DNA from: Planctomycetaceae bacterium
Lineage (GTDB): Bacteria > Planctomycetota > Planctomycetia > Planctomycetales > Planctomycetaceae
Assembly: GCA_020850695.1 (NCBI GenBank)
Contig: JADZEF010000095.1
Location: 1-36,037 of the forward strand
Length of the DNA stretch: 36,037 bases
Reading direction: 5' to 3'
Shown: positions 2,178 through 26,921 of the stretch, in pieces
How the letters are laid out: each line of letters begins with the position of its first letter
How positions within the stretch are numbered: position 1 is the first letter of the stretch
Translations under genes and position numbers: made by a program
The notes under the pieces: model-generated
What the model saw: only the letters and a program-made list of their open reading frames with translations
What the model was told of the DNA's origin: nothing
Database searches by the model: none

Positions 2178-4727
2178 TCAGTCCAGCAAGAAGATATCAA
2201 TCATTTCGCCCCCCGCGAAGGTAATCAGCGCCTTCAGCTTCTCATTATCGATGGACGACTTCAGCGATTTGACCGCTCCATCCGCGAAGAGGGCGACGAA
2301 CTTCTCGCCGAGCCGCCCCATGGCCGTTTTCGGATCGGCGGGGTTGAACGGAGCGTCCTCGGGTTTTGTCCAGATGACCGCCTTCTCCGGCGCCACTTCC
2401 ACGGCAAGGATGGTGCCGGACGACCCGTCCGTGAGGTCGCGCAACTTCAGCCCTTTGCGCGGGCCGAACACCGCCCCTTCGCCGGCGAAACCGACGAAAC
2501 GCGTCTTTCCTTTTTCACCCGGCTGGGCCGACTCGAACACCTTTGGCATCCTCTCGACGAGCGGTCGGTTCGTCGGGCTATCCCAGGCTTCATCGAGTTT
2601 GAACTGCTGGTAGAGCGGGGCCTCGCCCAGATAGGGAAGCAGATGAACGCGCCAGCTCAGCCCCGAACCCGATCCGTCCTCCTTCGGCGGGAATGAGCCG
2701 TTCGCATCGTGGAAGTTGTGCAGAGCCAGGCCGATCTGCCTCATGTTGTTGATGACCATCGTCCGCTGAGCGGCGCCCCGTGCCTCCTCGATCGATTTCC
2801 TTAAAGTCGCAACGACGGGCTCCCATCCGCCCGGGTTCTTCACCGTCAGCGTCGTTTCGTTGCCGGAACGGGCGATCGAGATCCCTGACTTGAGCTTCTC
2901 CGCAAAGGTCATGACATCCTTTTCGGCCTGCGAAGCGTTCGGATTCTGGAACTGCTTCATCATGTTGTAGAGGTCGTCCAGCTTTTTCTGGCCGTCCTTG
3001 AAACTGTTCTCCAGGCTCGCGCCCGCCGTCGCATCGTTGCCATCGACCTTGACCGTCAGCATTTCGGAACCCGAGAGGTCGACGGACGCCACGAACGATT
3101 TGACCTGATTGAGCTGGGCGGTCGGAGCTCCTCGCATCATCGGAGGGGCCAGCATCGAACTGGCATCGGCAAGGGCCTGCAGACTGCTGGGGAAGACGAC
3201 GACGACGAAGTCACGGTCGAGCGTCTGCGCTTTCACCTTGGCCGTCATGAGTCCCGCTTTGGGCCGTGCATCGAGCATCGCCAGAACCATCGACTTGCTT
3301 CCCATGAGAAGCGTGCGATCGTCCACCGGCGTCATGATGAAATCATTCGAATTGTTCTGCCCCGCTGCGGACGGCGAACTGGCTCCCAGCCCTGCCGATT
3401 CGATCTGCCAGTATTTCTTGCCTTTGTGGTCGTGTTGCGTCCGCTGGACACCTTGCACCGGCTTGGCATTCGTGATGAGGGATTCGAAGTCGGTCGGATC
3501 GATCATCCGGACGACAATCGTTCCCCCTTCCGTCCCGGAACTGGCGGGCGCGCCGCCGGGCGACGGCATGGGCATGGCAGCCGTTCCCGCGGCTGGCATG
3601 GGCATGGCAGGTGCCGCGCCGGGAGTCGCCATAGCGGGAACCGCTCCCGGCATCGGGTTGGCGCCCGCGCCCGGCGGCATGCCCGGAAGCCCGGCTCCCG
3701 CAGCAGGAGGGATCGCGCCGGCGGGTGCGGCGGCAGGAGGCGCCACTCCTGGAGCGGCCGCTCCGGGAGGCACGGCGCCCGCCATCGGGGGGACCGCCCC
3801 TGGTGCGGCGGCCGCGGGAGGAGCCATCGGTGTCGCCGCACCGCCCGCCGGCGCCTGGAAGGCCATATTCATCAGCCTGGGCGTTGCTGGCGGAACAGCA
3901 CCAGTCGGAGGCACTGCCGCACCGGCGGGAGGCACTGCTCCGGCCGCGGGCGGAATTGCTCCGGGAGGCATCGCTCCAGGAGGCATTGCACCGGGAGGAG
4001 CAATGCCGCCGGGCGGAGCGACCGCAGCCGGCGCAGCGTTGGCCCCCGCACCCGCGGGCATTGGACCAGCGGGCATCGCCGGCATGGCGCCAGGCCCTCC
4101 GGGCATCGCACCCGGCATGCCTCCTGGCATCGCACCCGGCATCTGTCCCGCCATCCCAGGGTTCGCGCCGCGACCTGCCGGCGGGCTACCCGCCACCGCA
4201 ATGAACTCGATCTTTCGCGGATCCAACTGGCCCAGCCCCTGCTCTTCGAGCTTCTTGATCGGCTCGTTCAGAGCATCCTGCGGAAGTCCGGAAACCAGCG
4301 ACGACTTGAAGATTCTGGACGGACGAACGAGCAGATACACTCCCGCATCGTTCGGAATGTAGGTCAATTCGTTGATGGCCCCGCCACCGCCGATCCGCTT
4401 GATGAGGTAGTAGGCTCCGGTCCCGCCAACCATCAAAAAGAGGACGATGGCGATCGCAATGAACACCGCAGCGGGAACGCCGCCTCCGGAAGAACTCTTC
4501 TTCGCGGCGGGGCGGCTGGCCCGGCTGCCGGAGCGTGTGCTCCCTGCACGCGGCGCGGGACGACGCGGGGCCGGACTCTCCCACTCTTCTTCAACTTCGA
4601 CGGCGTCCTCTTCACCCGATGGAACCGCCAGGACGGCTCCGCAATCTTTGCATTTGATTTTCTTCCCGGCCTTATCGTCGCCGACGCGGTACGTCTTTCC
4701 GCAATCGCAGGAAACGGTGATGGCCAT
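2178..4727 (-). CDS. Membrane protein with N-terminal zinc ribbon, Ala/Gly/Pro/Met-rich region and DUF1559-like C-terminus
   Basis: The protein has 849 residues. In order it has a zinc ribbon with C7, C9, C26 and C29; an acidic then basic linker; one transmembrane helix (about 86-109); an extracytoplasmic region; and a very long Ala/Gly/Pro/Met-rich low-complexity segment (about 176-396). A further domain follows, and the last ~200 residues resemble DUF1559: Met-Arg-Gln-Ile-Gly-Leu-Ala-Leu-His-Asn-Phe-His, then Ser-Trp-Arg-Val-His-Leu-Leu-Pro-Tyr, then the terminal Leu-Phe-Ala-Asp-Gly motif. DUF1559 proteins are abundant in planctomycetes and usually have a pilin-like N-terminus; here the ribbon plus transmembrane helix replaces it. 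The ATG at 4727 starts exactly at the ribbon; the ATG at 4766 would add 13 residues. Function unknown, likely cell-surface. Confidence 0.85.
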   Translation of the reverse strand: MAITVSCDCGKTYRVGDDKAGKKIKCKDCGAVLAVPSGEEDAVEVEEEWESPAPRRPAPRAGSTRSGSRASRPAAKKSSSGGGVPAAVFIAIAIVLFLMVGGTGAYYLIKRIGGGGAINELTYIPNDAGVYLLVRPSRIFKSSLVSGLPQDALNEPIKKLEEQGLGQLDPRKIEFIAVAGSPPAGRGANPGMAGQMPGAMPGGMPGAMPGGPGAMPAMPAGPMPAGAGANAAPAAVAPPGGIAPPGAMPPGAMPPGAIPPAAGAVPPAGAAVPPTGAVPPATPRLMNMAFQAPAGGAATPMAPPAAAAPGAVPPMAGAVPPGAAAPGVAPPAAAPAGAIPPAAGAGLPGMPPGAGANPMPGAVPAMATPGAAPAMPMPAAGTAAMPMPSPGGAPASSGTEGGTIVVRMIDPTDFESLITNAKPVQGVQRTQHDHKGKKYWQIESAGLGASSPSAAGQNNSNDFIMTPVDDRTLLMGSKSMVLAMLDARPKAGLMTAKVKAQTLDRDFVVVVFPSSLQALADASSMLAPPMMRGAPTAQLNQVKSFVASVDLSGSEMLTVKVDGNDATAGASLENSFKDGQKKLDDLYNMMKQFQNPNASQAEKDVMTFAEKLKSGISIARSGNETTLTVKNPGGWEPVVATLRKSIEEARGAAQRTMVINNMRQIGLALHNFHDANGSFPPKEDGSGSGLSWRVHLLPYLGEAPLYQQFKLDEAWDSPTNRPLVERMPKVFESAQPGEKGKTRFVGFAGEGAVFGPRKGLKLRDLTDGSSGTILAVEVAPEKAVIWTKPEDAPFNPADPKTAMGRLGEKFVALFADGAVKSLKSSIDNEKLKALITFAGGEMIDIFLLD
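3540..4190. repeat. Degenerate GC-rich repeat tract coding the Ala/Gly/Pro/Met-rich segment
   Basis: Short units such as Gly-Ala-Met-Pro-Pro-Gly, Gly-Ala-Val-Pro-Pro and Pro-Gly-Ala-Ala-Ala-Pro recur many times in the minus-strand gene, with matching imperfect DNA repeats (for example repeated gggaggcat/cggcatggc blocks). The tract is likely to vary in length between strains by slippage or recombination, which is inference. Confidence 0.7.
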
Positions 4728-5427
4728 AGCGCGCAGTCTTTCGGGACGGCAGAGGGGTGCGGACAAGAAAAGCCGGCGGGCCGAGCGTCCCGCACTTTGA
4801 AGAGGCGTTCAGAATACCGTGAATCTCCTGAGATGGAATGAAGAAATCACCGGTTTCCGGGGCCGTTTAACGCACAAAGGCCCCGGCTCGGGAGAGCCGG
4901 GGCCTTGAGGGGATCAAATTTCGTCGGACAATCGCACGGGTCGAAACATATCCTTTGGAAGAAAGAACCGACGAACAAACTCCCCTGTGGCTCAATCCGG
5001 ATTCGGGCTGAAAAAGTCAGTGGCTGGAGCAGAAATCTCTTCGTGATCGAATAATGACCCGGTCAGCGACAGCATTAGAACGAGATGGAAACGTGCCGAC
5101 AACTCCAGTCCCGGAGGACTGGAATCACCTTCGCTCCCCTCGCTCCTGATCACGACGCTTCGATCGGTCCTGCACCACACCGAGACCCAATGAATCTTCG
5201 TCCGTGAAAAACTCCGGATTGAACGCTGCCCACTAAAGCGATTCGCGTGCCACGAATTCCGTCGTGGACCGATTGCGGTAAGATCTTTTACCAACGTCTG
5301 TTATCATTTCAAGGCCAGTTCGATCGGCCAGCATCCCGCGGAGATCGAACTGTCGCAGTTTGCCGCAGATTTGCAGAACGCTACAGCGCCCCGTCCGTGA
5401 CCGTCTCATTGCCCTGTCAGGAAACGC
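4728..5427. other. 700-bp divergent spacer between the DUF1559-type gene and fmt
   Basis: Apart from the strong hairpin at 4877-4906 no gene or RNA is recognised. A 100-codon open frame on the minus strand (4992-5294) gives a translation without family features and is not called. A near-palindrome GGTAAGATCTTTTACC lies at 5277-5292. The spacer must contain promoters for both flanking genes. Confidence 0.4.
4877..4906. terminator. Strong terminator-like hairpin in a divergent spacer
   Basis: A perfect 13-bp stem, AAGGCCCCGGCTC paired with GAGCCGGGGCCTT, surrounds a 4-base loop (GGGA). Neither side has a long T-run. It lies upstream of both neighbouring genes, which point away from each other, so it does not end either of them. 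It could end a small RNA or act in the leader of the minus-strand gene, 150 bp upstream of its start. Confidence 0.5.
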
Positions 5428-7183: not shown

Positions 7184-7360
7184 GGGTTTGGTCAGGATCG
7201 GAGTCGAGAATTTTCCAGGCTGGCCCCAGGAGAACGGTCGTTCCTGGTCGTCGGCACCGCGGATGATGACTGACCGTCCGAGGGATTGCAACGTTCACGC
7301 GCAACGAGGCCTGCTCGCGCCGACACGCGGCGAGTAGGTCTGCGGATATTAAATTGAGAA

Positions 7361-7390
7361 AGCCCCGGCGCCGTTGCCAGCGTCGGGGCT
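7361..7390 (-). terminator. Rho-independent-type terminator of the first pilin-like gene
   Basis: An 11-bp stem (one G-T pair) of AGCCCCGGCGC with GCGTCGGGGCT encloses an 8-base loop. Read on the minus strand, the stem is followed by TTTCTCAATTTAATA. It begins 43 bases after the stop of the pilin-like gene at 7434. Confidence 0.75.
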
Positions 7391-7433
7391 CGTTCGGGCG
7401 CTCGTCGGCCGAATTGAACGAGACGCCGAGTCC

Positions 7434-7763
7434 TTACCAATGTCCGCCGCCCTTCGGCGATTCCGGAACCGGGTTGTCGCAGCTGATGGCGCACTCGTTG
7501 CCGTCGCACGCGTCACGGCGATCGTTGAAGAACGACCCCCGCGTGTGCGATTTCCCCGGAGCGGATTGACCGTGGTAGAAGTAGCTTTGGTTGAGCGATC
7601 CGATGGCTTCGGCAATGTCGTTCAGTTCGTTGACCACCGAGTCCTGGACTTCGCTGAGGCCCACGATGAGGCCGATGACCAGCAACGTCGCGATCAGGAC
7701 CAGTTCCGCCGAAATAATGAAGCCCGCTTCGTCATCGCGAAGCGCTTTGAGCAGTGTGTTCAT
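7434..7763 (-). CDS. Flp-pilin-like small protein, paralogue A
   Basis: The protein has 109 residues. A short polar leader ends Arg-Asp-Asp-Glu-Ala-Gly, followed by Phe-Ile-Ile-Ser-Ala-Glu and one long hydrophobic helix (Leu-Val-Leu-Ile-Ala-Thr-Leu-Leu-Val-Ile-Gly). This is the layout of a Flp/class III pilin precursor processed after Gly. If so, the conserved Glu falls at position +6 rather than the usual +5. The next segment, Glu-Leu-Asn-Asp-Ile-Ala-Glu-Ala-Ile-Gly-Ser-Leu-Asn-Gln-Ser, is shared by all four paralogues. The tail carries Cys-Asp-Gly-Asn-Glu-Cys-Ala-Ile-Ser-Cys-Asp and a Pro-rich end. It is closest to paralogue B. No tad, prepilin peptidase or secretion ATPase gene is in the window. 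Similar planctomycete proteins have, as I recall, carried misleading enzyme names. Confidence 0.85.
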   Translation of the reverse strand: MNTLLKALRDDEAGFIISAELVLIATLLVIGLIVGLSEVQDSVVNELNDIAEAIGSLNQSYFYHGQSAPGKSHTRGSFFNDRRDACDGNECAISCDNPVPESPKGGGHW

Positions 7764-7804
7764 GAGGCACGCTTTCGTGTTGTGGTAGGTTGTCGTCAGG
7801 GAGA

Positions 7805-7840
7805 GGCGTTCCCGGCAGGGCCCGCGACAGGTGGAACGCC
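7805..7840 (-). terminator. Possible hairpin after pilin-like paralogue B
   Basis: GGCGTTCC and GGAACGCC form an 8-bp stem around a 20-base GC-rich loop, 52 bases beyond the stop of the gene at 7892. There is no real T-run, so the call is weak. It would separate paralogue B from paralogue A. Confidence 0.3.
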
Positions 7841-7891
7841 ACGAGTCCTGCCTGAGAAGAGAGTCGAGCTGCAGTCACCCTCGGGCCAGAA

Positions 7892-8218
7892 TCACTTGGG
7901 GGCTTCGGGCACCGGAGCGTCGCAGCTGATGTCGCATTCGTTGCCGTCACACGCGTCGCGGCGATCGTGGAAAAACGAGCCGCGGGTGTAGGCGACGACC
8001 ACGCCGTTGCTGGTCTTGGACTGGCCGTGGAAGTAGTAGCTCTGGTTCAGAGAACCGATCGCTTCCGCGACATCGTTGAGTTCGTTGTTGACCGCGTCCT
8101 GGATTTCGCTCAGTCCGACGATCAGCCCGATCACGCACAACGTGGCGATCAGGACGAGCTCGGCGGAAATGATGAAACCGTTTTCATCCTGCCACAGGAC
8201 GCCCAGAATCTTCGTCAT
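7892..8218 (-). CDS. Flp-pilin-like small protein, paralogue B
   Basis: The protein has 108 residues and the same plan as its neighbours: leader ending Asp-Glu-Asn-Gly, then Phe-Ile-Ile-Ser-Ala-Glu and a hydrophobic helix, the Glu-Leu-Asn-Asp-Val-Ala-Glu-Ala-Ile-Gly block, and the tail Cys-Asp-Gly-Asn-Glu-Cys-Asp-Ile-Ser-Cys-Asp. It shares Phe-Ile-Ile-Ser and Asp-Arg-Arg-Asp-Ala-Cys with paralogue A, so A and B look like a recent duplicate pair. The frame is open far upstream (to 8407), but those residues are not pilin-like and the ATG at 8218 places the leader correctly. It differs by a slightly longer linker (Thr-Ser-Asn-Gly-Val-Val-Val-Ala) before Tyr-Thr-Arg-Gly-Ser. It is expected to be exported and membrane-inserted or assembled into a filament. 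Confidence 0.85.
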   Translation of the reverse strand: MTKILGVLWQDENGFIISAELVLIATLCVIGLIVGLSEIQDAVNNELNDVAEAIGSLNQSYYFHGQSKTSNGVVVAYTRGSFFHDRRDACDGNECDISCDAPVPEAPK

Positions 8219-8838
8219 TCGACAATGTCCCCGTTGGATGGAGTGTGAGTGTGAAGGCGGAATCTCCGCGCCGAGAAAATCCGCGCGGACCGCGCCCCGC
8301 GTGGGGCGAAAGGAGACGCTTCGGGCTGTGCCGCACCGCGCTCGACATCGCACCGATCGGCCGAATCGGAACGAGGGGGACTGCGACGGCCCGCGGGAAT
8401 GCAGCAATCCACTGCAACGCGGGCGGGGCTCAAGCCGAAGCTGAGGGGGTGCGTGTCAAGAATGCACGCGACATGCCGTGACGGCTCGGACCGGGACTCG
8501 CGCCAACCCGGGAGCCATGACAGCGCGGCTTAAGAGCCGCGGTCGGCACGTCTTGCGTTTCATTCCATCGGAAGGCCGCCCGCACGCGACGCGCTGCGGC
8601 GTCCGAAGGGCGCGCTCAAAAGACTTGGCGCAAACTGTCAATCGACGTCAGACGGAGATTGCGCCGTGTTCAGAAATGTGGCGTTCCCGCAACACCGCGT
8701 CAAACCGCGAATGAATGATACAACTGGAGCCAGGGAGGAGCTTCGATGCGAGACGATCCCAATCAATCGCCGGGCGACGGGGCGGCCGGCACGAATCGCC
8801 GAACTCGAGCTGCGACTCCATGGATTCGATGCGAGAAA
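8219..8838. other. Spacer between pilin-like paralogues B and C, no gene seen
   Basis: About 620 bp without a recognisable protein or RNA. A perfect 7-bp hairpin, CGCGGCT-taag-AGCCGCG, lies at 8524-8541. The translations of the open frames are Arg-rich and look noncoding. The part next to 8218 should hold the promoter of paralogue B. Confidence 0.4.
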
Positions 8839-8866
8839 CCGGGTCGAGGAGGGGACCTCGACCCGG
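8839..8866 (-). terminator. Rho-independent-type terminator of pilin-like paralogue C
   Basis: A perfect 11-bp stem of CCGGGTCGAGG with CCTCGACCCGG surrounds a 6-base loop. On the minus strand it is followed by TTTCTCGC. It lies 46 bases after the stop of the gene at 8913. Confidence 0.75.
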
Positions 8867-8912
8867 CATCGGATGTCGGAAGACCAGCGATCGAATGGCG
8901 GTCAGGCCATGA

Positions 8913-9230
8913 TCACTTGGGGGTTTCCGGAACCGGGTTGTCGCAGCTGATGGCGCACTCGTTGCCATCGCAGTTGTCGTTGCGATCGAGGAACGATGAA
9001 CCACGGGTGAAGGCCTTCACCTGCCCGTTGAACACGCCCGACTGACCATGGAAGAAGTAGCTTTGGTTGAGCGAGCCGATGGCTTCGCCGACGTCGTTGA
9101 GTTCATTGACAACCGCGTCCTGCAGTTCGCTCAGACCGACGATCATCCCGATGACGAGGATGGTCATGATCAGAACGAGTTCGGCGGAGAGGATGGCCCC
9201 CGCTTCGTCCTTCCAGAGTTTGCTCAGCAT
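8913..9230 (-). CDS. Flp-pilin-like small protein, paralogue C
   Basis: The protein has 105 residues. The leader Met-Leu-Ser-Lys-Leu-Trp-Lys-Asp-Glu-Ala-Gly precedes Ala-Ile-Leu-Ser-Ala-Glu and a hydrophobic helix, followed by the shared Glu-Leu-Asn-Asp-Val-Gly-Glu-Ala-Ile-Gly-Ser-Leu-Asn-Gln-Ser block. The tail has Asn-Cys-Asp-Gly-Asn-Glu-Cys-Ala-Ile-Ser-Cys-Asp. It is nearly identical to paralogue D (Ala-Ile-Leu-Ser-Ala-Glu, Gly-Val-Phe-Asn-Gly-Gln-Val-Lys), so C and D form the second duplicate pair. A GGAAGG upstream of the ATG at 9230 is a fair ribosome binding site. The larger open frame up to 9674 is not pilin-like. It has its own terminator, so it is probably transcribed alone. Confidence 0.87.
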   Translation of the reverse strand: MLSKLWKDEAGAILSAELVLIMTILVIGMIVGLSELQDAVVNELNDVGEAIGSLNQSYFFHGQSGVFNGQVKAFTRGSSFLDRNDNCDGNECAISCDNPVPETPK

Positions 9231-9803
9231 TGTTGAACCTTCCGATTGCGTGAGAGATGAGAGTCGAGAGATGAGAGTCGATCGACGCCGGGCTGGCGCT
9301 GACGCGATCCCGCCATCGACGTCTCGACGGCGAGCCCGGACCAGGTCCCCGAATTTCGGAGACTTCCGCTTCCTGCAGGGAGCTTCAAAGGGAGCGTCGA
9401 ACCAGGGAGAGACCGCGGCGACCTCAGAGAACTCTGGGGAGTCGCCGGGTACGGTTCGACGTCGAGCGGGGAATGCACCTACCGTGCCGAGATGTCGCGT
9501 TTTGGCAACGCGTACGCCGCGGAAGAATTCGGCGGCACGGCGAGGCGGCACGCAAGAAATGCGTTCGGAACGACTTATGGCGAAGGCGTCACGCATCGGC
9601 AGCAAATGGCACGATGCCTTCGGACCGCCATGGTGTGGCGGGAAGGCATCGCGACCGTCAAATCCGATTATCATGCGCTCTTATCACTGTTCGATCCGTC
9701 GAACAGCGGGGAGTCCGCTCCAACGTCCGAGGCGTCACCTCGAGGCGTCATATTTCGGGCCTCGGGGCGGCGTCAGGACTCGCGTCGAGCGAACCGTCAC
9801 CTA
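9231..9803. other. Spacer between pilin-like paralogues C and D
   Basis: About 570 bp with no gene recognised. Next to paralogue C it has the minus-strand leader element CTCTCACGCAA, also present upstream of paralogue D, and a 14-bp tandem repeat (9254-9281). At the other end a weak hairpin CGAGGC/GCCTCG (9741-9764) could end the paralogue D transcript. It has no T-run. Confidence 0.4.
9254..9281. repeat. 14-bp tandem duplication in the leader of paralogue C
   Basis: The unit GAGATGAGAGTCGA occurs twice in perfect tandem, 24 bp upstream of the minus-strand start at 9230. It lies in the 5' leader or promoter region of that gene. It is not seen upstream of paralogue D. Confidence 0.85.
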
Positions 9804-10127
9804 TCAGAACACCTTCGGGAACTCGGGCACCGGGATGTCGCAGCTGATCGCGCATTCGTTGCCATCACAATTGTCCGTGCGATCGACGAAGAAGGATCCG
9901 CGGGTGAAGGATTTGACCTGGCCGTTGAACACGCCCGATTGGCCGTGGAAGAAAAAGCTCTGGTTGAGGGCGCCGATCGCTTCGCCGACGTCGTTCAGTT
10001 CGTTGACCACCGCATCCTGCAATTCGCTCAGTCCGACGATCATCCCGATGACCAGGAGGGTCATGATGAGGACGAGCTCCGCGGAAAGAATCGCTCCGGC
10101 TTCATCGAGCCACAGTGTTTTCAGCAT
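9804..10127 (-). CDS. Flp-pilin-like small protein, paralogue D
   Basis: The protein has 107 residues and the same order as paralogue C: leader Met-Leu-Lys-Thr-Leu-Trp-Leu-Asp-Glu-Ala-Gly, Ala-Ile-Leu-Ser-Ala-Glu with a hydrophobic helix, the Val-Val-Asn-Glu-Leu-Asn-Asp-Val-Gly block, and a tail with Cys-Asp-Gly-Asn-Glu-Cys-Ala-Ile-Ser-Cys-Asp. It ends Pro-Glu-Phe-Pro-Lys-Val-Phe. The ATG at 10127 is chosen because it gives the same short leader as C; the frame is open to 10181. It is first in the minus-strand direction of the four-gene array, and its leader shares CTCTCACGCAA with paralogue C. The four genes divide into an A/B and a C/D pair, pointing to two rounds of duplication. Confidence 0.87.
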   Translation of the reverse strand: MLKTLWLDEAGAILSAELVLIMTLLVIGMIVGLSELQDAVVNELNDVGEAIGALNQSFFFHGQSGVFNGQVKSFTRGSFFVDRTDNCDGNECAISCDIPVPEFPKVF

Positions 10128-11512
10128 GGGATTGTTCCAGGTTGCGTGAGAGGGCTGGCGGCGTGCGGAGAGAGACCGCAACGTCCGCAGGAGAGAGTGC
10201 TCGCCCGAACCGGGATGGCGCCTTCGGGATCAGCGAAGGGGCTGGGCATTGCGTCCGTCGCTGTCTCTCGGGCCCTGAGAGATTGGCAACCGGATTCGAC
10301 GCATTCATCACCCGAGGTGATGCGCCCGCAGCTTTCCTGCCGCCGGTTCAAGCGGTGCGAATGGCACGATTTGCAGGTCGCGTACCATTGGAATAACCGG
10401 ACCAGGCGGTGTCACCTGCGCAACCCGCGTCGTCGCGACAACCCTTGCCAAATATCGGCTTTACGGATTGTGCGATCTCGACGGATTCGTTCGATCGTGC
10501 CGAATGCGCGGGTCAGTGCGCTTCTGACGGATAGCGCCAGTGTAAGGGTTGTGCTTCAACCTCTTCACAGGGACGCAGGTCGTCGCTGTTCACTGTTCGG
10601 TTGGCGCCGTCGGTCTGCATTCAGCGGCGTTGGCCTTGAGATGATCCCATTCACCCCTGCACGTCGGCGAAAGCGACTCAACAGTGGCCGTGCGTTCGAC
10701 CACTCAAATTCGCCAGGAAGCAGCGAGCGAATCCTTCCCAACCGAGTGCCCGAGGCGGGACTGCCCAAGGTCGTTCAAGACAGTTGGCGAGGTCGACGAA
10801 GTCTGTGGCCACCAGCGCTGCGATATCAGGGGACAACGAACTTCTCCAGGATCTTTCGCAGCAGCGGACTCGGCTTCTCAAGCAGCCGCTCGACGTTCAC
10901 TCTGACAGCGCATTGTCGAGGTTCCGTCGCCCCGCCCAATGTGCAGAGAATCTCGACGTGGACTTGCGAAGAGTCTCGCGTGTCTCGCAACACGCGAAAG
11001 CCGACGGGAAATGCGTTCTCGGGAATGACCGCGGCGGCAAGCAATTCTGTCAGCACGTTGCCGCCGAGCAACCCGATCGCGAGATACTTAGCGGAATCCG
11101 ACGGAGATGTTTCCACGGCCATGGGAACGCTCATGCTGGCACCAGAACATGGACGAGTCGATACATCGAATATTGCCGACGAAATTTTGGACGTCTCAGG
11201 TCTTTTCCAGGCAGATCCACTAATCGGACGTTGCCGAATCGCATCACTTCTGCACATTCGCAACCCATCTTTTGCACAACATCTTTTGGAACAGTATTCA
11301 GGGCAGCATCACGACTCGGAGCTTTGCCCCGCCTCTCAAAGCCTGTGACTCGAGGCGCATCTCGGCTTTCCGCCGGATATGATGAACGACAGACGGCGCG
11401 AAACCGCGATCGGAATATTGCTCGACCACCGATCGCGAGCCGCATATGGTCGGACTTTCGCGGTGTGAGACCGCCGGTTAAGAGTCTGGGGGGCACGATC
11501 GGGAGTTGCGAG
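10128..11512. other. Poorly coding 1.4-kb stretch upstream of the kinase gene
   Basis: No family is recognised. Base composition appears less GC-rich than the flanks between about 10,400 and 11,400. Several long frames overlap on both strands, but most give Ser/Arg-rich translations typical of antisense reading. The best candidate is the minus-strand ORF at 10826-11263, listed separately with low confidence. A sequence TGGCACGATTTGC at 10362-10374 resembles a sigma-54 site, but its spacing is two bases too short. Confidence 0.4.
10826..11263 (-). CDS. Doubtful hypothetical protein
   Basis: If real, the protein has 145 residues, or about 98 if it starts at the internal ATG at 11122. The C-terminal 90 residues look protein-like: Ala-Ile-Gly-Leu-Leu-Gly-Gly-Asn-Val-Leu, then alternating strands such as Val-His-Val-Glu-Ile-Leu-Cys-Thr-Leu-Gly-Gly and Cys-Ala-Val-Arg-Val-Asn-Val, and an amphipathic end Leu-Leu-Arg-Lys-Ile-Leu-Glu-Lys-Phe. 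The N-terminal 45 residues are less convincing. No family is recognised, no signal peptide is seen and no good ribosome binding site was found. It is divergent from the kinase gene. It could be a remnant of an older gene. Confidence 0.35.
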   Translation of the reverse strand: MRMCRSDAIRQRPISGSAWKRPETSKISSAIFDVSTRPCSGASMSVPMAVETSPSDSAKYLAIGLLGGNVLTELLAAAVIPENAFPVGFRVLRDTRDSSQVHVEILCTLGGATEPRQCAVRVNVERLLEKPSPLLRKILEKFVVP

Positions 11513-19247: not shown

Positions 19248-21299
<2,052 letters not shown>

Positions 21300-21315
21300 C
21301 AATGTAAAGTGACGA

Positions 21316-21353
21316 CTAACGAGTGCCCGGCGGCCTCGCCGGATGCTCGTTAG
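21316..21353. terminator. REP-like hairpin just after prkA
   Basis: CTAACGAG pairs with CTCGTTAG. After two G-T pairs and one mismatch the stem continues with CCGGCG/CGCCGG around a GCCT loop. It begins 16 bases past the prkA stop. No T-run follows. It could stop or attenuate transcription, stabilise the prkA mRNA end, or be a palindromic repeat element. No second copy is in the window. Confidence 0.5.
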
Positions 21354-21431
21354 CCGAAGGAATGTGTCTCTCAGTCAGAATCAAATCAGACGACGGGCGA
21401 GGCCGCTTGTCGTCGACTCTCAGGCGAAGTC

Positions 21432-22091
21432 ATGAGCACGGTGCTGGAAGAGGTCTCAAAGTCGGAAGCAGACCTTCCAGAGGCTCCAACGATCCCGTCG
21501 CGACCGGGCGAACCGGCGTGGGAGATCGCGCGCTACTTCCCCCGCCAGGGGCATTGGACCGAAGAGGCGTTCCTTGCGATCCCGAACAATCTCCGGCTCG
21601 AGTTGAACGACGGCGTCCTGGAGTTTCTCCCCGTGCCGACATTCTCTCACCACGACCTTCTTCAGTATCTGTTCTTCAAACTGCATGCCCATGTGACGCC
21701 CCACAAGTTGGGTCTGGTCTACGTCAATGGTGTCAAAATCAAGCTGTGGGATGGTCAGATCCGCGAGCCCGATGTCGTTTATCTTCGTCCGGAGCGCATC
21801 ACCGACCGGACGAAGCCTTCGGACGGCGCTGATCTCACCATGGAAGTCGTCAGCGGAAGTCATGAGGACCGGCAGCGGGACCTCGTCGTGAAGAAATTCA
21901 TCTACGCAAAGTCTGGCATCCCGGAATACTGGATCATCGACCCGAAGACAGAATCTATTTCGGTTCTGGTTCTCAAAGGCGCCGCCTACGAAGTCCACGG
22001 TGAATTCAAGTCGGGACAGGTTGCAACTTCGGTCCTGCTTCCCGGTTTTGAGATCGATGTGGCTGCTTGCTTCGCTGCTGCGATGGTCTGA
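21432..22091 (+). CDS. Uma2-family (DUF820) PD-(D/E)XK nuclease-fold protein
   Basis: The protein has 219 residues. Family landmarks are Thr-Glu-Glu-Ala-Phe-Leu-Ala-Ile-Pro, Arg-Leu-Glu-Leu-Asn-Asp-Gly-Val-Leu-Glu, Glu-Pro-Asp-Val-Val-Tyr-Leu (catalytic-type D114), Met-Glu-Val-Val-Ser (E138), then Asp-Leu-Val-Val-Lys-Lys (K154/K155) and Tyr-Ala-Lys-Ser-Gly-Ile-Pro-Glu-Tyr-Trp-Ile-Ile-Asp. The nuclease residues appear intact. Uma2 genes are very numerous in cyanobacteria and planctomycetes and have no established function. It sits between prkA and yeaH, 132 bp after prkA and 98 bp before yeaH, all in one direction, so it may be co-transcribed. It is not a usual member of this operon and was probably inserted. 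Confidence 0.92.
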   Translation: MSTVLEEVSKSEADLPEAPTIPSRPGEPAWEIARYFPRQGHWTEEAFLAIPNNLRLELNDGVLEFLPVPTFSHHDLLQYLFFKLHAHVTPHKLGLVYVNGVKIKLWDGQIREPDVVYLRPERITDRTKPSDGADLTMEVVSGSHEDRQRDLVVKKFIYAKSGIPEYWIIDPKTESISVLVLKGAAYEVHGEFKSGQVATSVLLPGFEIDVAACFAAAMV

Positions 22092-22189
22092 ATCGCAGAT
22101 CAAACTCTTTGTGTGACTCTTCGATTGGTTGATCCGTCGCTCGCCGCCCTGATCTCGTAAACAAGTCCTTCCAACCGTCCAGGTCTCCC

Positions 22190-23296
22190 ATGTCCCGCAC
22201 CATTGACCAGGACCAGAAACGCTTCAACGAGATTGTGCGGGGGAAGGTGCGCCAAAACCTTCGCAAGTACGTCACGCACGGCGAGATGATCGGCCGCAAA
22301 GGGCGCGAGATCGTTTCGATCCCCGTCCCCAACATCGAAATCCCGCACTTCCGCCATGGCGAGAAGGGTTCGGGGGGCGTTGGCCAGGGAGAGGGAGAAG
22401 TCGGTCAGCCGATCGGAAAGGGACAGCAGGAGGGGGATGGCAAGGGACAGGCGGGCGACCAGCCGGGCGGGCACATCCGCGAAGTCGACATCACGCTCGA
22501 CGAACTCGCCGAAATGCTGGGCGAGGCGCTGGAACTTCCCAACATCGAGCCCAAGGGGAAGGACTCGCTGAAGGCCCGCAAGGACAAGTACAGCTCGATC
22601 CGAACGACGGGGCCGAACTCGCTCCGCCACTTCAAGCGGACCTACAAGCGGGCCCTCAAGCGCCAGATTTCGACGAACGAATACAACCCGACGAAGCCGC
22701 TCATCATCCCGATGCGCGAGGACGAGCGGTTCAAGGCATGGAAGACGGTAATGGAGCCTGAGGCCAACGCGGCCATCCTCTACATGATGGACGTTTCCGG
22801 GTCGATGACCGACGAGCAGAAGGAGATCGTCCGCATCGAATCCTTCTGGATCGACACCTGGCTCAAGCGGCACTACGACGGCGTCCAGAGGAGGTATGTC
22901 ATCCACGACGCCGTGGCTCGTGAAGTCGACGAAGACACGTTCTACCGCACCCGCGAAAGCGGCGGCACGCGGATTTCGTCAGCCTACAAGGCCGCCGCCC
23001 AGATCATCGAGCGCGACTTCCCCGCCAGCGAATGGAACATTTACTGCTTCCAGTTCTCGGACGGCGACAACTGGGGCGAGGACAACCTCGCGTGCCTTGA
23101 GATGCTGAAGGAGAAGCTGCTCCCAGTCTGCAACCTCTTCTGTTACGGGCAAGTCGAGAGCCCCTACGGATCAGGCGACTTCATCCGCGAACTGCGAAAG
23201 GTCCGCCCCAACTGGGACAACCTTCTCCTGAGTGAAATCGAGAACAAGGACGCGATCTACGACTCGATCCGGGAATTTCTGGGGACGGGGAAGTAA
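22190..23296 (+). CDS. yeaH: DUF444 protein (YeaH/YhbH), VWA-like
   Basis: The 368-residue protein belongs to the YeaH/YhbH family found with PrkA and SpoVR. A conserved N-terminus ([14 protein letters not shown]) and Pro-His-Phe-Arg-His-Gly are followed by a Gly/Gln/Lys-rich linker (about 58-95). The C-terminal von Willebrand A-like domain has an intact metal-site motif Asp-Val-Ser-Gly-Ser-Met at D201/S203/S205, with Gly-Gly-Thr-Arg-Ile-Ser-Ser and Phe-Ser-Asp-Gly-Asp-Asn-Trp later. The family is needed for sporulation in Bacillus (YhbH) and acts in stress in E. coli; its biochemical job is unknown. The stop codon lies 4 bases before an inverted-repeat arm, so the downstream insertion left this gene whole. 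Confidence 0.95.
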
Positions 23297-23300
23297 AGGC

Positions 23301-23342
23301 ATTTGCCCACGAATGGCGCGAATAGACGCGAATAAAGGCAAA
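23301..23342 (+). repeat. Left arm of the GxxExxY inverted repeat
   Basis: The arm starts ATTTGCCC and ends AATAAAGGCAAA. Its core has three CGAAT units spaced 9-10 bp (CGAATGGCG, CGAATAGACG, CGAATAA). It matches the reverse complement of 23891-23932 with five mismatches. Confidence 0.9.
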
Positions 23343-23438
23343 GGCAATCAGACAAGACTTGATAACAAGACGGGGGGCCGTTCAAGCCTGCAAAGATTCG
23401 TTGTCGGAAATAAAGGAAAGCGCGTACGGAGCGTGTGG

Positions 23439-23840
23439 ATGTTGTTTCCCGATGAAAGCTATCGCGTCATGGGAGCCTGCTTCGAGGTCCACAACACGAT
23501 GGGATGCGGGTTCCTTGAAGATGTCTACCACGAATGTCTGGCGATCGAATTCGAACAGTCAGGAGTTCCATTCATTTCGAAGCCCGAGCTGACGCTCGCT
23601 TATCGCGGCCGCGAGTTACAGCAGAAGTATTGAACCGACTTCATCTGCTTCGGCTGCATTCTGATCGAAATCAAGGCGGTAACAATTCTCGCCGACGCGC
23701 ATCGTGCCCAGGTCATCAAATACCTCAACGCAACCAGATTTCAACTGGAAATCCTCGTCAACTTCGCCGCTCATCCGAAAATCGAGTATCAGCGAATCGC
23801 CCTCTGTGAAGGAAAGCTAAAGAACCTCACTGACGAATGA
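23439..23840 (+). pseudogene. GxxExxY-family protein gene broken by a nonsense codon
   Basis: The first part reads normally: Pro-Asp-Glu-Ser-Tyr-Arg-Val-Met-Gly-Ala-Cys-Phe-Glu-Val-His, then the signature Gly-Phe-Leu-Glu-Asp-Val-Tyr, then Leu-Ala-Tyr-Arg-Gly-Arg-Glu-Leu-Gln-Gln-Lys-Tyr. A TGA at 23631-23633 follows. Beyond it the same frame continues with the rest of the family: Thr-Asp-Phe-Ile-Cys-Phe, Ile-Glu-Ile-Lys-Ala-Val, Ala-His-Arg-Ala-Gln-Val, Tyr-Leu-Asn-Ala-Thr and Lys-Ile-Glu-Tyr-Gln-Arg, to a stop at 23838-23840. A single CGA-to-TGA change would explain this, since family members often have Arg there. Some Gly positions in the second half are also changed, consistent with decay. 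The family resembles PD-(D/E)XK nucleases. The start at 23439 is preferred; an ATG at 23313 lies inside the repeat arm. Confidence 0.88.
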
Positions 23841-23890
23841 CTTCCAAGTTCTGGCTTCAGTCATCCGGATTTCTGGCTCTTTATTTGTCT

Positions 23891-23932
23891 TTTGCCTTTA
23901 TTCGCGCTGATTCGCGTCATTCGCGGGCAAAT
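23891..23932 (-). repeat. Right arm of the GxxExxY inverted repeat
   Basis: On the plus strand it reads TTTGCCTTTATTCGCG at the start and GCGGGCAAAT at the end, with three ATTCGCG units 9-10 bp apart. It is the inverted counterpart of 23301-23342. It ends 38 bases before the spoVR start and may lie in the spoVR leader. Confidence 0.9.
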
Positions 23933-23970
23933 TCTTCCTCCCGATCGACGTCTCAGCCAGCGGGCACACC

Positions 23971-25497
<1,527 letters not shown>

Positions 25498-26612: not shown

Positions 26613-26627
26613 TGGCACGCATCTTGC
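26613..26627 (+). promoter_or_regulatory. Sigma-54 (RpoN) promoter upstream of csbD
   Basis: TGGCACGCATCTTGC matches the consensus TGGCACG-N4-TTGC at every defined position, with the -24 GG and -12 GC correctly spaced. A start of transcription near 26638 would give a leader of about 85 nt to the csbD ATG at 26724. Such promoters need an AAA+ activator, none of which is encoded here. Confidence 0.75.
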
Positions 26628-26723
26628 CTTACGTCCTGTCGACGAACACGAAGAGAAATGAAGCACGAAGGCGGTGGTATCGATCCGCCACAATCAGGAA
26701 CTTCACGAAGGAGAGACATTTCA

Positions 26724-26921
26724 ATGAACTGGGATACCGTGAAAGGCGACTGGAAACAGTTCAAAGGCAAAGTGAAGCAGAAGTGGGGAAAGCTGACCGA
26801 CGATGACCTCGACGTCATCGAAGGGAAGCGCGACGAGCTGTCGGGCAGGCTTCAGGAACGCTACGGCTACGCGAAAGACAAAGCCGAGAAGGAGATCGAC
26901 TCCTTCTGCGAAAAATGCTGA
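26724..26921 (+). CDS. CsbD-family stress protein
   Basis: The 65-residue protein matches the CsbD/YjbJ family: Met-Asn-Trp-Asp-Thr-Val-Lys-Gly-Asp-Trp-Lys-Gln-Phe-Lys-Gly-Lys-Val, then Trp-Gly-Lys-Leu-Thr-Asp-Asp-Asp-Leu, Gly-Lys-Arg-Asp-Glu-Leu-Ser-Gly and Tyr-Gly-Tyr-Ala-Lys-Asp. CsbD proteins are small, very charged and helical, induced by general stress in Bacillus (sigma-B) and E. coli, with unknown mechanism. AAGGAG lies 10 bases before the ATG at 26724; the frame opens at 26658 but the extra residues are not family-like. It is a monocistronic unit with its own sigma-54 promoter and terminator. The C-terminus carries an extra Phe-Cys-Glu-Lys-Cys. Confidence 0.95.
   Translation: MNWDTVKGDWKQFKGKVKQKWGKLTDDDLDVIEGKRDELSGRLQERYGYAKDKAEKEIDSFCEKC

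Follow-up and report, generated by a model that had tools for sequence, protein, structure and literature searches.

Probable Flp-like pilins of a Planctomycetia-specific subfamily encoded by a four-gene array apart from Tad assembly genes

What do four small genes with pilin-like products do in a stretch of DNA that has no pilus assembly gene beside them? We addressed this question for a 36,037-nt stretch of a Planctomycetaceae bacterium genome (contig JADZEF010000095.1, positions 1 to 36,037; hereafter the window), in which four genes, designated A to D, lie in tandem on the minus strand from position 7434 to position 10127. The original prediction described them as pilin paralogues of 105-109 residues with a pilin-type leader and a hydrophobic helix, and our analysis confirmed the open reading frames (ORFs), the leader, and the helix. 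The assignment to pilins also gained support: in relatives, sister genes take the pilin position within Tad operons, and the family was found related to canonical Flp when profiles were compared. With a probability of roughly 0.7, A-D encode a set of paralogous pilins of the Flp-like (Tad, type IVb) kind, which belong to a subfamily specific to the Planctomycetia and are cut and assembled in trans.

The array is transcribed in the order D-C-B-A, with intergenic gaps of 573, 694, and 128 bp. Gene D (9804..10127), the first in this order, encodes a protein of 107 aa with the leader MLKTLWLDEAG, a Glu at +6 after the leader Gly, and a C-terminal tail with three Cys. Gene C (8913..9230) encodes 105 aa with the leader MLSKLWKDEAG and is 88.6% identical to D at the amino acid level. 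Gene B (7892..8218) encodes 108 aa with the leader MTKILGVLWQDENG; its start, the ATG at 8218, was picked by leader alignment, and a longer frame upstream reaches 8407. Gene A (7434..7763) encodes 109 aa with the leader MNTLLKALRDDEAG. In all four proteins, the leader has the form D-E-x-G and is followed by the hydrophobic helix. The nucleotide differences between paralogues fall mostly at codon position 3 (7, 8, and 42 differences at positions 1, 2, and 3 for C-D, and 17, 15, and 53 for A-B), which argues that A-D are real genes under purifying selection and not chance ORFs. The proposed division of the array into an A/B and a C/D pair was upheld in part. Judged from their identity, C and D are a recent pair. 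For A and B, signature residues supported a pair, whereas identity hardly did (76.0%, against 75.2% for A-C; A-D, 74.8%; B-C, 73.3%; B-D, 72.4%), and the tree left A and B without a clear placement.

AlphaFold2 models of 20 sequences contained one helix at residues 9-61, confident from about residue 11 to 50; pLDDT reached 95 in the span and fell past residue 50, and the tail was uncertain. A single long helix of this kind fits a pilin stem, polymerization lying outside the reach of the model. Matches from a sequence search of the PDB were at chance level only and were dropped.

The relationship to known pilins was evident in profile-profile comparison. Using hhalign, the family profile matched canonical Flp with a probability of 92.3% (E 5e-7) and matched a group of small pilins, here called VEY pilins, with 96.9%; VEY pilins in turn matched Flp with 95.0%, and the RcpC and TadG control profiles scored 1.5% and 0.3%, respectively. 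At the profile level, the VEY pilins are a bridge from the family to canonical Flp. The alignments placed a one-residue gap between the Gly and the Glu, so the shift of the Glu was seen independently of manual counting. Weak matches to Sec61_beta, IsaB, and Flp1_like were dropped; they fell below the cut-offs and were mostly confined to the hydrophobic stretch.

How widely is this family distributed? The window genome (8.6 Mb, 440 contigs) carries nine intact family genes in all, five of them outside the window on contigs C379 (two), C107, C380, and C172. Members occurred in 32 of the 392 genomes of the phylum, in one class only and mostly in the window's own family, and a degenerate-pattern scan of 84,980 species returned ten loci, all planctomycete. 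The copy number reaches 19 per genome and tandem arrays are common; three genomes of one genus (G181, G238, and G350; genus g3) have 17-19 copies each, with tandem arrays of about ten or more (e.g., G238:C1:5178885-5184632, L086). The family is lineage-specific (Planctomycetia) and uncatalogued, having been missed by annotation pipelines, with no curated model matching it; our literature searches on planctomycete Flp/Tad pilins returned no description of it.

In an alignment of 139 distinct members, the most conserved parts were the helix and an E-L-x-D...A-I-G-x-L-N-Q-S-[YF] segment. The leader Gly was invariant (133/133 aligned members), as expected of a prepilin cleavage site. Of the 117 members in which its position could be measured, 116 had the Glu at +6, and in 115 the next residue was Leu, Ile, or Val; the N-terminal sequence reads G-[AF]-I-[IL]-S-A-E-L. 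The C-terminal tail adds 40-50 residues, is variable, and usually contains two or three Cys. Some long members (L006, L045:2485-3321, L101:8157-8864, and L104:3037-3759) have Pro/Cys-rich tails of 100-170 residues and are possibly display or tip versions. A separate 439-aa protein (G000:C82:41749-41868, L010) resembles the family only in the family-typical ELKDIAHALRSLDQSF segment (E 1.4e-9 with an iterated profile); it lacks a pilin helix and has what looks like a signal peptide.

The tail bears on a different interpretation, in which the products always stay unassembled as small signal-anchored proteins of the membrane or periplasm; their pilin-like N-terminus would be ancestral and the Cys tail would be the active part, for example in envelope stress or in metal or redox sensing. 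Tail Cys in most members, dispersed copies without adjacent machinery, and the absence of the +5 Glu and Tyr that Tad pilins have are all compatible with this. However, conservation is highest in the helix and the ELND..NQS[YF] segment, whereas tails differ in length and in how many Cys they hold, and both the co-occurrence with a Tad cluster and the in-cluster sister genes described below favor assembly. We consider this interpretation quite unlikely.

The assignment of A-D to Tad pilins was strengthened by relatives in which family genes lie within Tad clusters. In ten genomes belonging to families f1 and f2 (L098, L105, L106-L111, L114, and L121), genes of a sister branch lie directly before RcpC-TadA-TadB-TadC; two of the ten have an A24 prepilin peptidase gene in between, and family f3 has a more divergent in-cluster case (L125). 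By Pfam, the cluster at L105 comprises T2SSE, two T2SSF, RcpC, Peptidase_A24, and TadE. We refer to Tad clusters with family genes in the pilin slot as type II; they hold one to four family genes, and some add a VEY pilin of 61 aa with its Glu at +5. In the tree, which was built on few columns and has moderate branch support, the in-cluster genes and the dispersed genes, including those of the window, formed separate branches (SH-aLRT support 86-89).

These clusters make it very improbable that the proteins are subunits of another type IV filament system, such as type II secretion or a type IVa pilus. The window genome does encode several additional T2SSE ATPases of different kinds, but Tad was the only machinery found beside sister genes. 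The leader is also not of the N_methyl (GFTLIE) type, and no Pfam match to N_methyl or type IVa pilin models was obtained.

Type II clusters often contain one divergent copy without the Glu (L098:6096-6482, L105:7430-7843, L107:9116-9454, L108:7526-7822, and L111:7781-8086), which brings to mind the tip and minor pilins found in other type IV filaments. It may then be asked whether the dispersed copies are pseudopilins or minor or tip subunits, processed like pilins, that modify filaments of a canonical Flp (on contig C260 in this genome). A canonical Flp is present in the window genome and in 112 of the 118 genomes of the class, the in-cluster sets include the unlike Glu-less copy as tip pilins often do, and some dispersed copies have long Pro-rich tails. 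Up to 19 copies per genome and a Glu retained in nearly all dispersed copies would be unusual for minor subunits, and it is family genes, not Flp, that hold the pilin slot of type II clusters. This role is unlikely in our view.

If A-D are Tad pilins, where is their machinery? No pilus assembly gene (TadA, TadB, TadC, or RcpC) was found in the window around the array, as had been claimed; the claim holds for the window, and Tad modules and five A24 peptidase loci lie on other contigs. A search of the window genome by protein family located a Tad module on C259 with the order A24-TadE-RcpC-TadG-TadA-TadB-TadC, the last two being T2SSF proteins, which we term type I. A second module on C311 contains A24, RcpC, and a TadZ-like protein, and C149 carries one TadA. 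The genome thus encodes both a prepilin peptidase and a Tad system, on whose presence the original prediction had made its case depend. No type II locus was found in the window genome.

The type I cluster on C259 has no pilin gene of its own. Among six type I clusters of the window genome and its relatives, no pilin-like small gene was found besides TadE, apart from two dispersed copies 3.2 kb from the cluster in one genome (G087); this near-adjacency was not counted, the 3.2 kb holding other genes, which are molybdate-transporter-like. Across the 30 genomes of the window's family, TadG of the type I kind was detected in 25 (two by weak matches), all of which have family members; of the five genomes without it, four have no member and one has in-cluster copies only. 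The association was significant by Fisher's test with kinship ignored (P about 2e-4, or 7e-6 for dispersed copies only). On the basis of this co-occurrence, we slightly favor the view that the type I motor assembles the dispersed pilins, and word this cautiously because kinship was uncorrected and canonical Flp is almost universal. Other arrangements were also seen: in four species of a genus of another family (g277), a canonical Flp lies 1-2 kb from a type-I-like TadG, and many genomes have a third kind of TadA with a canonical Flp about 6.5 kb upstream of it.

The following scheme would account for these observations. An A24 prepilin peptidase, supplied from another part of the genome, would remove the short charged leader by cleavage after the invariant Gly. 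The helix of roughly 50 residues, consisting of the membrane span and the amphipathic ELND..NQSY segment, would then polymerize into a thin filament built in trans by a TadA-TadB-TadC motor, for which the type I cluster on C259 is the likeliest candidate. The Cys-containing tail would be displayed on the filament surface, where differences between paralogues would vary it, and the filament may function in adhesion.

Several observations weigh against this scheme. No Pfam or NCBIfam model reached its cut-off for the family; PF04964 did not match the window proteins at E values up to 1, its best match among 17 relatives had an E of 0.083, and the canonical Flp of the window genome does pass this model. 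The Glu+5/Tyr+6 pair of Flp, present in 19 of 19 planctomycete Flps, is replaced in the family by Glu at +6 and then Leu. A Foldseek search of the PDB gave no fold match for a model consisting of a single helix with a low-confidence tail. The dispersed copies adjoin no Tad gene, the nearest case being that in G087. The co-occurrence statistics are uncorrected for relatedness, and the near-universal canonical Flp could be the type I substrate instead. The family very probably works like PF04964 pilins, yet it should not be filed there because its Glu is shifted by one, the Tyr is absent, and a tail is added.

The upstream regions of the array gave an indication of how the genes are controlled. 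Sigma-54 (-24/-12) promoter-like sites were found on the minus strand upstream of D (TGGTACGCGACCTGCA, 10372..10387, 260 nt before the ATG, one mismatch) and C (CGGCACGGTAGGTGCA, 9474..9489, 259 nt before the ATG, two mismatches). A weak site with three mismatches precedes B (CGGCATGTCGCGTGCA, 8463..8478, minus strand) at 260 nt from the ATG, a distance as in C and D, and the upstream scan of A found none. Across the family, the pattern TGGCACR-N4-YTGCW with at most one mismatch occurred in 18 of 95 non-redundant 320-nt upstream regions, about sevenfold more often than at random places in these loci (2.6 expected); the Y had been introduced once earlier sites were known, which inflates this count somewhat. 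An earlier scan using TGGCACR-N4-TTGCW with shuffled controls gave the same picture. The window genome encodes RpoN, and no sigma-70 promoter was found in the window scan. Sigma-54 probably drives transcription, at least from D and C. As to the original proposal that the paralogues are variants for different conditions or surfaces, the sole relevant findings, the lineage-wide expansion and the sites that are best at D and C and fade toward A, suggest shared rather than condition-specific control. Co-regulation of the pilins with type I Tad operons was unsupported, only one of six such operons having a sigma-54-like site. Elsewhere in the window, sigma-54-like sites occur on the plus strand at 23033 (TGGAACATTTACTGCT), inside the DUF444 gene, and at 26613 (TGGCACGCATCTTGCC), a short distance ahead of an unassigned ORF that spans about 87 aa (26658-26921).

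Clear separate terminators had been proposed for at least two of the genes. Strong hairpins do follow C (8835..8870, minus strand, -26.6 kcal/mol) and A (7359..7394, minus strand, -24.9 kcal/mol), compared with the -18.8 kcal/mol reached by 5% of random window stretches; as terminators they are possible rather than clear, with weak T tails (TTTC) and neither listed by a consensus terminator scan. No Rfam element was found in the window. The neighbors of the array are unrelated and include genes for a methionyl-tRNA formyltransferase, a phosphoglycerate-mutase-like protein, a DUF1559 protein, a protein kinase, and glycogen enzymes. Also present is a prkA-DUF444-spoVR group (19248-25497, plus strand) in which prkA and DUF444 are separated by a Uma2 nuclease-like gene. 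An 862-aa protein (2178-4766, minus strand) has an unusual architecture, in which a DUF1559/SBP_bac_10 domain is represented by its start alone, close to the C-terminus.

Planctomycetes do produce fibers whose subunits might be sought in such a family. In Planctopirus limnophila, 12-nm pili-like fibers that bind dextran were described on large crateriform structures and 6-nm stalk fibers on small ones (PMC5394234); we found no paper naming the subunits of planctomycete pilus-like or stalk fibers. There is a small chance that the family supplies the pilus-like fibers of crateriform structures, or the fibrillar stalk, of the Planctomycetaceae. With its link to a Tad motor and its likely sigma-54 promoters, this expanded and conserved pilin family provides a short list of genes that are good candidates for fiber subunits.

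The scattered arrangement has a precedent in DUF1559 (SBP_bac_10), a heavily expanded planctomycete family with prepilin leaders that is likewise dispersed around the genome (PMC8567305); unlike the present family, it has an N_methyl (type IVa/type II secretion) leader and a large C-terminal domain, and no sequence relation between the two was found. The pseudopilins TadE, TadF, and TadG are also Tad-associated and have a prepilin-like N-terminus (G-[FI]LSMEL in planctomycete TadE), but their Glu is at +5, the TadE and TadG models miss the family, and the TadG profile scored 0.3%. The VEY pilins (L098:1954-2136, L105:11761-11943, and L106:15279-15455) share an aligned helix and an ELxDLADAI segment with the family, but have about 61 aa, no tail, and a Glu at +5 followed by Tyr. 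With Flp/Fap (PF04964), the family shares a small size, a short charged leader that ends in Gly, a single long helix bearing an early Glu, profile homology, and, in the sister branch, the pilin slot; it differs in the +6 Glu, the Leu in place of Tyr, the Cys tail of 40-50 residues, its many dispersed copies, and scores below the Pfam thresholds. Canonical Tad pilins, such as that of Caulobacter, are mature helices of 45 residues without a globular part, and their assembly needs the hydrogen bonds formed by the +5 Glu and the +6 Tyr (PMC11067988). The proteins described here would be Tad-related pilins that lack this pair, held essential for Tad packing, and carry an extra tail; if they also make up the crateriform or stalk fibers, the displaced Glu and the missing Tyr would mark a Tad filament packed differently from the Caulobacter type.

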